From Eubacteriales bacterium (GTDB lineage Bacteria > Bacillota > Clostridia > Lachnospirales > Lachnospiraceae), in the NCBI GenBank assembly GCA_030526665.1, contig JAUNCI010000012.1:1-39304 (forward strand): a DNA stretch of 39,304 nt. Direction: 5' to 3'. Under the pieces are notes generated by a model that saw nothing but the letters and a program-made list of their open reading frames with translations, was not told the origin of the DNA and did not search any database. Below, in pieces: positions 18,714 through 30,564 of the stretch (the first letter of the stretch is position 1; the number at the start of each line of letters is the position of its first letter). The translations under genes and the position numbers were made by a program.

Positions 18714-21419
18714 CTACTGTTTCTTCTTTCCTAGTCTAATATCTTCCACGTAATCGCTCAATTCATCCGACAGATTATCAAACAGGTAGGACTTACTGCT
18801 TTGTCTGCGTTCCTTCCATTCTGTCATCGTCTGCTGTTTTCGCAGCTCCAGATCTTCTTTCAGATCTCTGGCTGACATACGCAGAGCACCCTGTCCCATA
18901 ATAATAACCTGTTCCAGTCCATCCGATGTAGCTACGGTTACTTTATAATCTTTGCTCAGCTTATGAACTGTTTTTTCAATATACTGGTCCGCTGTTTCTG
19001 CTTCTTTTGTATATACCACATAAATATTGTGGTATTTCAGCACTTCCTCGGCATGCCCTTCTATTTTGTAAGCATCAAAAACAAGAATCAGATTCATTCC
19101 CGTATATCCCTGGTAATTGCTCATGATATCGATCAGTCGCGTTTGTGCGGCATGCAGATCATCCGCTGCCAGTTCCCGCAGTTCCGGCCAGGCATAGATA
19201 ATATTGTAGCCATCGACCAGCAGATATTCTTCCTGTGTGTTTACTTTTTTTCGGGCAGTTTTGGTCGGTGCTGAAGAACTCTGATACGTTTTTCGTTCTG
19301 TAAAACGTTGTCTTTTCACTGGTCCGAAAGTACGTTCAAAAATAGCCTGTAATTCCTTGTCTTCTTCAAAACTTCCCATACCGGAAGATCTGGAAGATCG
19401 TCCGGAATTCATCTCCTGCACTTCCATCTCTGTCGTATCCGGATCCAATTGCGCGCCTTCCAGATGCATGTACTCTTCCACCTGATTCCATGGAACAACA
19501 AAACCAGCTCCATGTGCACAGAAAACAGATCCTGTCGGATTCAGCAAATCTCTTTCCGAATCATATCCGATTGCTTCAACCACAGCATCCTGTTCGCTGC
19601 AAGGCTGATAGCCACCCAGTTCACAGAAAAGTCTGCCGCGTCCGCCTGTATATGCGAGAACTTCTTTTTGATAATCACGCATTGCGGATACCGGCGCCGT
19701 ACCCTTGATCACAGACATATCTTCGTCCATTTCCGGCGGCAAAAATGTTCCCTGCATTCTCTGAATATCTGAAATCGCTCTTCCTGACATTTCTGTTGGA
19801 ATTTCCATTCGAAATTCATAATATGGTTCCAGCAAAACAGATTTTGCTTTTTTCAGTCCCTGACGAATTGCCCGATATGTCGCCTGACGGAAATCCCCGC
19901 CTTCTGTATGTTTCAGATGTGCTTTTCCACTGATCAGTGTAATCTGCATATCCGTAATCGGTGAACCGGTCAAAACACCAATGTGTTCTTTTTCTTCCAG
20001 ATGTGTCAAGATCAGACGCTGCCAGTTTCTGCTAAGTGCATCCTCACTGCATGAGGTAAAAAACTGAAGTCCGCTTCCCGGTTCTCCCGGTTCCAGCATC
20101 AAATGCACCTCCGCATAATGTCGCAGCGGCTCAAAATGCCCAACACCTTCCACCGGTTTTGCAATCGTTTCTTTGTATACAATACTTCCCGAACCAAATT
20201 CAACTGCAACCTTAAATCGTTCCCAGATCATATGCTTCAGGATTTCAATCTGCACCTCACCCATCAGCATCGCGTGGATTTCACCCAGATGTTCATCCCA
20301 CACAATATGAAGCTGAGGTTCTTCTTCCTCGATCTGCTTCAGTTTTTTCAGCATCTGATGCACATCACATTCCGGAGGAAGTTTAATTTCATAATTAAGT
20401 ACCGGTTCCAGAAGCGGAAGTTCTGATTCGCTTTCGACCCCCAGTCCCTGTCCCGGATAAGTCTGTGTTAAGCCGGTAACTGCACATACCGTTCCTGCCA
20501 TGGCCTCTTTTTCCAATTCAAATTTTGCACCGGAATAAATTCGAATCTGATCGGCCTTTTCTTCCCAGATTTCCTCGGGCTGTCCATGTCGAATCGCAAA
20601 GTCTCTGTCCGGTCTTCGATTTGTCAAAATCTCTTTTACCTTCAAGCTTCCACCCGTTACTTTTAAATAGGTAAGGCGATTTCCCTGCTCATCTCTGGCA
20701 ATTTTGAATACCTTGGCTCCAAACTTCTCTTTGTACTGTGGAATCTGTGTGTATTTATTGATTCCCTGCAAAAATTCCGTCACACCTGTCATCTTCAGTG
20801 CCGAACCAAAGAAGCATGGAAACAATATTCGCTGTGAAATGCATCTGCGGATATCTTCTTCATTTACGGCATTTGTTTCAAAATACTGTTCCATCAGTGT
20901 TTCATCGCAAGCCGCAACATTTTCCATAAACAGATCTTCTGACTGGTTCGGATCAAAATCGATGCAGTTCGCATCCAGTCTCTTTTTCAATTCCTCCAGC
21001 AGACTTTCTTTGTTTACATCCGGCTGATCCATCTTGTTGATAAACAAAAAGGTAGGGATCTGATACTGACGCAAAAGTTTCCACAACGTCATCGTATGTC
21101 CCTGTACGCCGTCCGCCCCACTGATTACCAGAATTGCATAATCCAAAATCTGAAGCGTTCTCTCCATCTCTGCTGAAAAATCGATATGTCCCGGTGTATC
21201 CATTAATGTAATTTGTATATCATCCATATCCAGAACTGCCTGTTTAGAAAAAATGGTAATACCACGCTCTCTCTCCAGTTCGTACGTATCCAGATATGCA
21301 TCTTTATGGTCAACCCTGCCCAGTTTACGGATTTTTCCGCATTCATACAGCATACCTTCTGACAAAGTCGTCTTTCCGGCATCAACATGAGCAAGAATTC
21401 CTATCACAAGTTTTTTCAT
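18714..21419 (-). CDS. TetM-like translation GTPase fused to a C-terminal NYN (YacP/Rae1-like) nuclease domain
   Basis: A 901-residue fusion. Residues 1-650 are an EF-G/TetM-type GTPase: P-loop AHVDAGKT (10-17), RGIT (52-55), DTPGH (74-78), NKMD (128-131), then domains II-V with GYQP near 603. In the domain IV loop that in TetO/TetM carries the tetracycline-displacing SPVSTPADF, this protein reads LKHTEGGDF, so drug resistance should not be assumed. After a charged linker (about 655-728) comes a NYN/PIN-like domain: VDGYN (735-739), FDA (781-783), ETADQYIE (808-815) and TSD (831-833), the acidic pattern of YacP/Rae1, an A-site mRNA endonuclease in Bacillus subtilis. The ATG at 21419 (GGAG 6 nt upstream) fits TetM; the frame extends upstream without a binding site. 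Monocistronic. The joint role in ribosome control is inferred. Confidence 0.88.
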   Translation of the reverse strand: MKKLVIGILAHVDAGKTTLSEGMLYECGKIRKLGRVDHKDAYLDTYELERERGITIFSKQAVLDMDDIQITLMDTPGHIDFSAEMERTLQILDYAILVISGADGVQGHTMTLWKLLRQYQIPTFLFINKMDQPDVNKESLLEELKKRLDANCIDFDPNQSEDLFMENVAACDETLMEQYFETNAVNEEDIRRCISQRILFPCFFGSALKMTGVTEFLQGINKYTQIPQYKEKFGAKVFKIARDEQGNRLTYLKVTGGSLKVKEILTNRRPDRDFAIRHGQPEEIWEEKADQIRIYSGAKFELEKEAMAGTVCAVTGLTQTYPGQGLGVESESELPLLEPVLNYEIKLPPECDVHQMLKKLKQIEEEEPQLHIVWDEHLGEIHAMLMGEVQIEILKHMIWERFKVAVEFGSGSIVYKETIAKPVEGVGHFEPLRHYAEVHLMLEPGEPGSGLQFFTSCSEDALSRNWQRLILTHLEEKEHIGVLTGSPITDMQITLISGKAHLKHTEGGDFRQATYRAIRQGLKKAKSVLLEPYYEFRMEIPTEMSGRAISDIQRMQGTFLPPEMDEDMSVIKGTAPVSAMRDYQKEVLAYTGGRGRLFCELGGYQPCSEQDAVVEAIGYDSERDLLNPTGSVFCAHGAGFVVPWNQVEEYMHLEGAQLDPDTTEMEVQEMNSGRSSRSSGMGSFEEDKELQAIFERTFGPVKRQRFTERKTYQSSSAPTKTARKKVNTQEEYLLVDGYNIIYAWPELRELAADDLHAAQTRLIDIMSNYQGYTGMNLILVFDAYKIEGHAEEVLKYHNIYVVYTKEAETADQYIEKTVHKLSKDYKVTVATSDGLEQVIIMGQGALRMSARDLKEDLELRKQQTMTEWKERRQSSKSYLFDNLSDELSDYVEDIRLGKKKQ

Positions 21420-21548
21420 TGTAATCTCCTTTACATACCGCTCTATTTTACCACATACCTGATAGTATTGTATACAAACAAAACAGAATCCAGTTCTCCA
21501 GCTTAACAAGGGTCCTGCCCGCAGCATAACAAAATCTGTACAAACTAC

Positions 21549-21575
21549 AAAAAGGCGGCCGCAAATGCGACCGCC
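21549..21575 (-). terminator. Terminator of putP
   Basis: On the minus strand GGCGGTCGC and GCGGCCGCC pair (one G-T wobble; 21567-21575 with 21554-21562) around a 4-nt loop, followed by TTTTT. The rest of 21420-21661 holds the leader of the GTPase-NYN gene, with a TAAAAT box near 21445 but no clear -35. Confidence 0.88.
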
Positions 21576-29004: not shown

Positions 29005-29022
29005 ATCGAAGTTGTGTTTCTA
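28951..29022 (-). repeat. Four 18-bp tandem repeats between yjjI and the ATPase gene
   Basis: Four exact-length units on the plus strand at 28951, 28969, 28987 and 29005. The first two are ATCGAAGTTGTATTCCCC and ATCGAAGTTGTTTTCCCC; units three and four are diverged (ATTGAAGTTATATTTCAT, ATCGAAGTTGTGTTTCTA). The last unit includes the yjjI stop codon. A decayed fifth unit seems to run into the Shine-Dalgarno of the ATPase gene. The 18-bp period keeps the frame. Confidence 0.85.
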
Positions 29023-30564
29023 TCTGATTTTTCGTTCCAAAATATGTCCTGAATGCGTTGCTTCCAGTCCAAGTGCGGTTGTATCCTGCAATACAGCCTC
29101 ACCTTTGTCTAATTTTTCCATTTCAGATCGTTTCACCAAATATCCGGTTACACGAATTACATCACTGTCACTGGAATAGAATGACAGGTAACGCAGATCG
29201 ATCTGAAAAGCACCTTTGATAATATCAAGGATATATTCCGGATTTTTGTGAACCGTTATATCAATTGGGAAAATATCTCCTGTTCCCGAAACGAAATATT
29301 TATGGAAGTTTTTCAATACCATCAGCTGATCTGCCAGTTCATCCGGTTCTTCACCGATCGGAATTCTGGTTCCAGGAGTGATATCGTAATCATCAGAAAT
29401 ACCAACCTGAGCATGCAAAAGGAAATGCCCATCTGTCACTTCACAATATTTATTTTTATGATTGTTATTGAAATCATTGATAATTTCCATAATTTCAACG
29501 CCAAGCTTTGTTGCATTCTCCGTATGACCGAAGCGTCCTTCAATGCCTTCTTTTTCAAACAGAATGTTCACACATTCCGCCATTCCTACCAGGCCGAACA
29601 TTGCTGTAAAACGGTCTCTGTGGATAAAGCCTTCTTTTGCAAGGAAATTATTTTCAAAGAATCCACTTTCTTCTACTTCAAAACGAATTCTTTCATCCAT
29701 ATATCCGGCCATAATATCCATTACATAAGGCAGCTGATTCTCTTTGAAATCCTGAATATTTTTTGCACGTTTTGCAATATTTCCAAGGATCAGACGGCAA
29801 AGAGTATAGGAACCTCCGCCATAAGGAAGTCCGTTATAGCAGCTTGCAATTACATAGTCCTCTGTCAATTCACTGCGGAACATCGCATGATTTGCAAAGC
29901 TTGGTTTTGCACTATGCAGAGCACAGTCAATTGCTTTTAAAGCAAAAGCATCATCTGTCACACCCTCTTCGTATTTCATCGTCAGGTTTGGCACTGCCTG
30001 TTCCAGTTCTGCTTCTACTTCCAGAATGATTTCGCCGGCTTTTGTCATTTTCGGTCCGATATTAGCATGTGAAAATGAATCCAGCACGGTACGATCCACG
30101 TTGATTAAAAACAGACGAATCATTTTTTTGGCGATTTCTCGCGGAACCGTATCAATGAAAGGCTCCAGCAATGTATCAAGAGCACCTACATATACCGGGT
30201 AATTTGTTACACTAGGTACATGTTTGTAAAAGATCAAAAGGCTGTTTAATGCCTCATACAAATCCTGAGGCGGATCAAGCTGCAGGAATTTACTTCCCTC
30301 TTTCATAAATTTTGCATAATCAGGAACAATATATCTTGGACGTAAAGGTGCATGTCCCTCACTCAGATCACAGATACACTGTGTTTCTTTTGGTGCATTC
30401 AGCAATTCATCCAGACCTTCCGGAAGATCCAGGACTTCCATCAGAGAATCTGCTTTGTTAGCCAATGCAGCAACCTTCTGTTCATGAGTCAATGTTGCAC
30501 TTTTTATAACACTCAAGATTTCTTCACGTGTATTCTGCACGCGTTCCATTGAAATCTCTCTCAT
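29020..30564 (-). CDS. yjjI: YjjI-family glycyl radical enzyme
   Basis: A 514-residue protein of the YjjI (DUF3029) glycyl radical enzyme family, whose reaction I do not know to be established. The radical motif RVTGY is at 471-475 (Gly474), near the C terminus as required. The likely thiyl Cys is C242 in ASCYNGLPYGGG. The length matches E. coli YjjI (about 516). A radical-SAM activase of the YjjW type is needed but none is in the window. GGAGG 7 nt before the ATG supports this start. It precedes the nucleoside importer on the same strand; E. coli yjjI-yjjW lies beside the deo nucleoside genes, which fits a role linked to nucleoside sugars. The oxygen-sensitive enzyme fits an anaerobe. Confidence 0.87.
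   Translation of the reverse strand: MREISMERVQNTREEILSVIKSATLTHEQKVAALANKADSLMEVLDLPEGLDELLNAPKETQCICDLSEGHAPLRPRYIVPDYAKFMKEGSKFLQLDPPQDLYEALNSLLIFYKHVPSVTNYPVYVGALDTLLEPFIDTVPREIAKKMIRLFLINVDRTVLDSFSHANIGPKMTKAGEIILEVEAELEQAVPNLTMKYEEGVTDDAFALKAIDCALHSAKPSFANHAMFRSELTEDYVIASCYNGLPYGGGSYTLCRLILGNIAKRAKNIQDFKENQLPYVMDIMAGYMDERIRFEVEESGFFENNFLAKEGFIHRDRFTAMFGLVGMAECVNILFEKEGIEGRFGHTENATKLGVEIMEIINDFNNNHKNKYCEVTDGHFLLHAQVGISDDYDITPGTRIPIGEEPDELADQLMVLKNFHKYFVSGTGDIFPIDITVHKNPEYILDIIKGAFQIDLRYLSFYSSDSDVIRVTGYLVKRSEMEKLDKGEAVLQDTTALGLEATHSGHILERKIR

Follow-up and report, generated by a model that had tools for sequence, protein, structure and literature searches.

What is a protein for when its first part resembles a tetracycline-protection factor and its last part a ribonuclease? 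The question is raised by a gene in contig JAUNCI010000012.1 of a Eubacteriales bacterium (family Lachnospiraceae, class Clostridia, phylum Bacillota), of which a stretch of 39,304 nucleotides was analysed (the window). A single frame of 901 residues, running on the minus strand from 21419 down to 18714, encodes an EF-G/TetM-like translational GTPase joined to a YacP (Rae1)-type NYN nuclease domain. Our preferred reading, held with moderate confidence from the sequence, is that the fusion would act as a ribosome-directed endoribonuclease mounted on its own translational GTPase, being the only YacP/Rae1 found in the genome of the window.

Fusions of this kind are already known; new here are the spread of the fusion through the family, its separate clade, its conserved sites and its replacement of yacP. 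Atkinson 2015 (PMC4342817) notes the same domain pair in ten species of the same bacterial group, the clostridia, calls the products Tet proteins and suggests an RNase-based resistance, whereas the fusions described here occur in 20 families of a class-wide sample, fall outside the Tet clade and stand where yacP has been lost. Rae1 was described in 2017 by the dates in reference lists, after that study, and YacP/Rae1 of Bacillus subtilis is described as an endonuclease that cuts mRNA in the ribosomal A site (PMC6613710, PMC12320835, PMC8266666). A description of the fusion was not met elsewhere in the literature searched, although the later Rae1 papers may mention it, and the main text of a survey of tetracycline resistance genes (PMC7725328) does not mention NYN.

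The plus-strand frame at this location is interrupted by many stops, and the minus-frame translation begins MKKLVIGILAHVDAGKTTL; the original prediction left the strand unstated. An AGGAG ribosome-binding site precedes the ATG at 21419, and because of this site and the alignment we favour that start over the ATG at 21527, as far as which the frame stays open. Translation and Pfam searches bear out the prediction that one frame carries a GTPase, a charged linker and an NYN domain (Table 1), with all five EF-G-like domains recognizable (domain II below the Pfam cut-off) and NYN_YacP above its cut-off. The GTPase had been placed at residues 1–650; its domains do lie there, but Pfam domain V ends near residue 610, and is followed by an extension to about 652 and then by the 80-residue linker. 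Among solved chains, sequence comparison places TetO, TetM and EF-G closest to the first part, and B. subtilis YacP (PDB 5mq8, 5mq9) closest to the last. The acidic residues D736, D782, D811 and D833 stand where they had been predicted, and align to D7, D53, D81 and D104 of the solved YacP (5mq9). Rae1 is a stand-alone protein (solved chain of 181 residues) encoded beside yacO/rlmB, whereas here a translational GTPase carries the nuclease as its C-terminal domain, and the fused gene does not adjoin rlmB but lies on another contig.

The putative active sites of both parts are strongly conserved. In an alignment of 119 rows (118 fused proteins and that of the window; 118 distinct, 117 clusters at 95% identity), in which the window protein is 54–64% identical to the named rows, all four predicted nuclease aspartates are intact in every row. 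The GTPase residues V12, D13, K16, T17, T55, D74, H78, K129 and D131 are likewise present in 119/119 rows, and N128 in 118. As predicted, residues 502–510 (LKHTEGGDF) take the place of the TetM domain IV loop SPVSTPADF, and among them K503, H504, T505, D509 and F510 are invariant; Pro509 of the TetM tetracycline site aligns to K503, a lysine in all 119 rows (the TetM frame used in the alignment begins five residues early, such that its position 514 is 509). The nine unfused GTPases in the alignment share the C-terminal extension, and neither the nine Tet-type rows nor the two EF-G rows have it. The spacing between W644 and D736 varies from 79 to 154 residues (91 in the window protein).

These features bear on the proposal that such proteins are tetracycline ribosomal protection proteins that gained an RNase as a second resistance mechanism (Atkinson 2015, PMC4342817). 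TetM and TetO share the EF-G-like architecture and are the best solved relatives, the best NCBIfam match is tet_protect, and RefSeq places the Agathobacter rectalis member in the TetM/TetW/TetO/TetS family; the expectation that automatic annotation would call the gene tetracycline resistance holds for that member, but not for the one from Monoglobus, which is called 'translation factor GTPase family protein'. However, the tet_protect match scores 421.8 bits against a cut-off of 775 (tet_protect_M_W, 297.8 against 1100), the GTPase is 28–30% identical to the mobile Tet proteins compared, and the fusion differs from TetM and TetO (about 29% identity) in its KHTEGGDF tip, its extra C-terminal extension and its nuclease domain. 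The Pro509-type tip of domain IV contacts C1054 in the drug site of Tet-type proteins (PMC8161019), and it is this proline that is replaced by the invariant lysine.

The same point emerges from a quick maximum-likelihood tree of 69 GTPase rows (39 fused, 17 unfused with the KHT loop, 4 EF-G and 9 Tet-type). Fused and unfused KHT-loop GTPases group together at 100% support in the Shimodaira–Hasegawa-like approximate likelihood ratio test (SH-aLRT), apart from the EF-G rows and from the Tet-type rows (TetM/O/W/S and an OtrA-like row), although the program warned of long branches; the window GTPase does not lie inside the TetM/O/W/S clade, and the nearness of the family to Tet proteins as against EF-G is unsettled at 89% support. 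Within the fused clade (100%), 39 of the 40 rows are fused. The exception is a broken and unannotated Limosilactobacillus fermentum copy without NYN, on a long branch and near gpsB (L227:3001-4900, CP033372), which hints at the presence of the family in Lactobacillales. Plasmid carriage also argues against a resistance gene, since the NYN domain matches 24 of 72,556 plasmid records, with two fusions among the 20 matches listed; these two are on large replicons of A. rectalis and Monoglobus pectinilyticus, whose annotated genes (e.g. secA in M. pectinilyticus) suggest chromosome-like pieces. With the fusion present in most genomes sampled from the family and standing where yacP was lost, we consider the resistance proposal very unlikely. 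The claim that this is not mainly a drug-resistance protein thus agrees with its separate clade, its lysine at the Pro509 position, its housekeeping neighbours and its commonness, and the fusion is probably a normal mRNA-cutting factor.

The distribution of the fusion was followed in draft genomes, on which the frame-length counts rest, and the species sampled are related, so that genomes are not independent. A search of the Lachnospiraceae for the same domain pair, as proposed with the original prediction, found NYN_YacP in 179 of 200 genomes (that of the window included): in 162 it lies in a frame of at least 800 residues, in nine in frames of 174–210 residues, and in eight in frames of 214–690 residues that are unassigned (contig ends, frameshifts and odd cases). 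The genome G115 has an NYN domain in a 690-residue frame (G115:C43:27866-28273) and no family GTPase was found in it; this is possibly a divergent or a different fusion. The class sample has NYN_YacP in 93 of 137 genomes, with 50 in frames of at least 700 residues, across 20 families, 42 in short frames (168–216 residues), one split (G238) and none in both long and short frames. Both states occur within each of four families (f1, f19, f20 and f23). In the phylum sample a GTPase profile matches 25 of 199 genomes at 1e-33, 13 of them in frames of 857–956 residues (368–473 bits), and nine of these 13 are outside the class, their NYN domain being judged from frame length alone. The GTPase and NYN pair is present in all 34 long-frame genomes fetched and in 80 of 80 named loci, although the latter lean towards the query because they are the best-scoring of at least 595 relatives; named carriers include Robinsoniella, Herbinix, Anaerovorax, Desulfosporosinus, Intestinimonas, Clostridium punense and Fusibacter. 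The domain pair is not a chance join.

Further comparisons concern the site that yacP usually occupies. The usual gene order is cysS-mrnC-rlmB-yacP-sigH, and the genome of the window has cysS-mrnC-rlmB-sigH without yacP; a second NYN_YacP was not found in this genome, which is 92% complete. The NYN domain is nearly always single in a genome, and fused and stand-alone YacP are mutually exclusive in the sampled genomes, in agreement with the expectation that stand-alone YacP would be missing where the fusion occurs; the one undecided case, G030, has a long frame and also a further NYN fragment, truncated where its contig stops, which could be fused or stand-alone. An initial set of 17 fused genomes showed no NYN gene downstream of rlmB: sigH follows rlmB in 11 (including that of the window), and other genes do so in six. 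Adding seven of genus g224, two of which (G219 and G306) were in the first set, gives 22 fused genomes, with an intact NYN gene adjoining rlmB in none and rlmB followed by sigH in 16. The NYN gene adjoins rlmB in four of seven stand-alone genomes tested and does not in two, the seventh being a contig piece without a gene after rlmB.

Genus g224 provides the cleanest contrast, although it may reflect one event. Of the 11 genomes searched in it, seven have the fusion, four have a stand-alone NYN and none has both above the family cut-off; rlmB-yacP-sigH is intact in the four, and in the seven the interval from rlmB to sigH contains no intact yacP. A decayed yacP is evident in the fused genome G219 (L250:2281-2863), with 68% identity over 487 nucleotides to the intact yacP of G245 and an alignment score of 346 against a maximum of 54 in 500 shuffles; it has seven frame-changing indels and four stops, and two of three comparable aspartates are changed. 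Its fused congener G527 keeps an 84-nucleotide end of yacP (score 62 against 42), and G287, a fused genome of another family, keeps 74 nucleotides (64 against 46). A first such comparison covered six fused genomes and gave a remnant in G219 and G287, a borderline score in G284 (37 against 34) and none in G306, G241 and G109. Decayed copies of this type form natural before-and-after pairs within one genus. Several groups carry the fusion and have lost yacP, which in fused congeners is decayed; the simplest account is therefore that the fusion would perform the same task as Rae1, which these sequence comparisons make quite likely.

A few candidate second copies were considered and discarded. The weak NYN match in G306 is in a regulator-like frame, as read by eye, and resembles weak matches in five other congeners, both fused and stand-alone; the apparent second copies in G061 and G145 are pieces at contig ends, and in G110 one frame was matched in two pieces. 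A 168-residue frame between rlmB and sigH of the NYN-less G064 is unlike YacP (read by eye).

In a tree of NYN domains the fused domains group with nine stand-alone NYN domains of the Lachnospiraceae and that of G324 (support 96/98), and most stand-alone NYN domains of the class fall apart from this group. Fission of the fusion was considered as a general source of the stand-alone genes of the family and is rejected, because in spite of this grouping G017 and G169 keep the gene at its usual site adjoining rlmB; the stand-alone NYN genes of G048 and G182 do not adjoin rlmB. The fusions of G109 (L094), a member of the Lachnospiraceae, and Desulfosporosinus acididurans (L171) share 79% identity, and horizontal transfer of the fusion between groups appears likely from this comparison.

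Unfused relatives of the GTPase bear on the role of the first part. These proteins (about 650 residues in the aligned rows) group with the fused ones and share their loop and C-terminal extension, but lack the nuclease. With a profile of domains IV–V and the extension, fused proteins mostly score 378–482 bits, unfused 333–371, Tet-like 126–156 and EF-G-like about 127 or less, the last two ranges touching; three long-frame members, G307 (332), G200 (361) and G413 (368), score like unfused proteins. An intact unfused GTPase is present in 11 of 51 genomes with a stand-alone NYN (7/9 in the Lachnospiraceae, 4/42 elsewhere; the G082 copy is broken), and in three of 40 NYN-less genomes tested (0/20 within the family, 3/20 outside it). 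Because of these last three, we reject the idea that the unfused GTPase occurs strictly together with YacP. The GTPase could itself rescue or recycle ribosomes, with the NYN domain merely riding along so as to be concentrated there and with cutting that is untimed by GTP. The unfused copies, found with or without YacP, fit this explanation, and Rae1 of B. subtilis is not known to need a GTPase of this kind. We nevertheless consider it unlikely: the fusions form one clade in which the GTPase motifs are kept, and none of 61 fused genomes (5 + 56 tested, the latter at 1e-33) carries another full-length GTPase of the family. G256 has an additional GTPase match of 85 residues, located where a contig ends.

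Returning to the ribosome-directed endoribonuclease, we infer ribosome binding, cutting, the A-site position, the order of steps and the flexibility of the linker. The EF-G-like part in its GTP form would bind the factor site of a ribosome with a free A site, with the conserved KHTEGGDF tip of domain IV placed in the decoding region. Tethered by some 80–90 residues of flexible linker, the NYN domain would next cleave the mRNA within or close to the A site, a reaction that B. subtilis Rae1 carries out unaided. The factor would leave upon hydrolysis of GTP, and the cut ribosome would pass to rescue by transfer-messenger RNA (tmRNA) and SmpB; SmpB is found in the genome of the window. EF-G-type proteins dock beside the A site, so the GTPase would be a natural delivery and timing part. 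GTP-dependent cutting in the A site has, from these sequence features, at best an even chance. A bolder reading, somewhat less likely than not, is that the GTPase uses its KHTEGGDF tip to survey ribosomes whose A site is empty and then licenses the tethered Rae1 domain to cut the mRNA there, and that the unfused GTPase and stand-alone YacP, in genomes that have both, are a two-part version of the same device. Many Clostridia would then use this GTP-gated A-site endonuclease for housekeeping, in quality control or mRNA decay, and it would at times be mislabelled as tetracycline resistance.

A different target is also conceivable, namely that the fusion is a ribosome assembly or ribosomal RNA (rRNA) processing factor, with the GTPase docking on subunits and the NYN domain trimming rRNA. 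In its favour, yacP adjoins the rRNA methylase gene rlmB; however, EF-G-type factors act on 70S ribosomes, and 21 of the 200 family genomes do without NYN_YacP. NYN domains were earlier proposed for rRNA/tRNA maturation (PMC4342817), and B. subtilis rae1 and yacO (rlmB) mutants act in one pathway (PMC6613710), but Rae1 is reported to cut translated mRNA (PMC6613710, PMC12320835), and rRNA processing seems to us improbable.

Several points weigh against the ribosome-directed endoribonuclease or against parts of it. First, the replacement of yacP speaks for overlap of function, not for mechanism; a yacP remnant was not found in five of the seven fused g224 genomes (G306 and G528–G531). Secondly, the A site has no room for domain IV and the NYN domain together, so that the model requires either a hand-over or cutting at some other site. 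Thirdly, the GTPase has some role of its own, because unfused copies occur without any YacP, and the function is dispensable, because the 20 tested of the 21 family genomes lacking an NYN_YacP match lack the GTPase too. Finally, there are divergent members: that of G307 has DSYN in place of DGYN, and the NYN of the G200 fusion sits on a long branch, apart from the other fused NYN domains.

Table 1. Features of the fusion gene and its upstream region (window coordinates; residues are those of the 901-residue protein).
Feature	Coordinates	Strand	Basis or remark
Whole fusion gene, 901 residues	18714..21419	-	ATG at 21419
GTPase (G) domain, residues 4-224; motifs AHVDAGKTT, DTPGH, NKMD	20748..21410	-	Pfam PF00009 GTP_EFTU, 9.7e-51
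EF-G domain II, residues 233-320	20460..20723	-	Pfam, 22.2 bits, below cut-off of 27
EF-G domain III, residues 338-409	20193..20408	-	Pfam
EF-G domain IV, residues 412-526	19842..20186	-	Pfam
Domain IV loop HLKHTEGGDF, residues 501-510, position of TetM SPVSTPADF	19890..19919	-	alignment
EF-G domain V, residues 528-610	19590..19838	-	Pfam
Family-specific C-terminal extension, SVFC.HG..V.W motif, residues 611-652	19464..19589	-	alignment
Charged linker, residues 653-732	19224..19463	-	alignment
NYN_YacP (Rae1-like) nuclease domain, residues 733-895	18735..19223	-	Pfam, 4.5e-52, 176.8 bits, cut-off 24.6
D736 (= D7 of YacP)	19212..19214	-	alignment
D782 (= D53 of YacP)	19074..19076	-	alignment
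D811 (= D81 of YacP)	18987..18989	-	alignment
D833 (= D104 of YacP)	18921..18923	-	alignment
Candidate extended -10 promoter, 25 bases 5' of ATG	21445..21474	-	consensus match only
Terminator-like hairpin 3' of upstream putP-like gene, before candidate promoter	21554..21575	-	consensus match only

Pfam scans covered 28 window proteins, including the fusion and leaving out some smaller frames; the others have housekeeping or transport functions, among them greA, a putP-like transporter, ftsH, uvrC, hprK and a major facilitator superfamily (MFS) transporter, and none of these others was named as a mobile element or resistance gene, the MFS protein not being classified further. Two tRNAs are the sole Rfam matches in the window at gathering thresholds. 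Leader attenuation of the tet(M) type was looked for at the gene and showed no sign, the terminator-like hairpin lying upstream of the candidate promoter, both by consensus only. A defence origin is likewise not indicated, with PADLOC returning only one match, at 0.009. No conserved gene neighbours were found among 118 loci, some of them short; the commonest neighbour cluster, in 22 of the 118, seemingly mixes broad families. Elsewhere in the window, 29020-30564 on the minus strand encodes a glycyl radical enzyme of a YjjI-like family (743.9 bits).

Relatives of the two parts also occur in plasmid and phage records. Twelve Clostridioides difficile plasmids of 97–150 kb (records H3–H14) carry a gene annotated as NYN domain-containing protein, about 44% identical to the window NYN. 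The nuclease part matches 13 phage records, of which MT835514 ('Bacteriophage sp.', unverified; L230) has a full fusion gene of 869 residues, and MT835563 is a second fusion-bearing 'Bacteriophage sp.' record. A phage origin by way of MT835514 is rejected: the record looks like a bacterial chromosome, with AddB, FeoB, RsmH and a class I tRNA synthetase among the eight proteins scanned. The strong match of phrog_6880 ('translation elongation factor', PHROGs) to the GTPase part (456.6 bits over residues 1–652) indicates that relatives of this part occur in phage-labelled sequences.

If the preferred reading is true, a ribosome-directed endonuclease with a built-in translational GTPase would serve most of the sampled genomes of the Lachnospiraceae and many other Clostridia, and how Rae1 cuts mRNA on ribosomes would be testable in a single polypeptide. 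Resistome surveys, for their part, may then be counting a housekeeping gene of these bacteria as tetracycline resistance.

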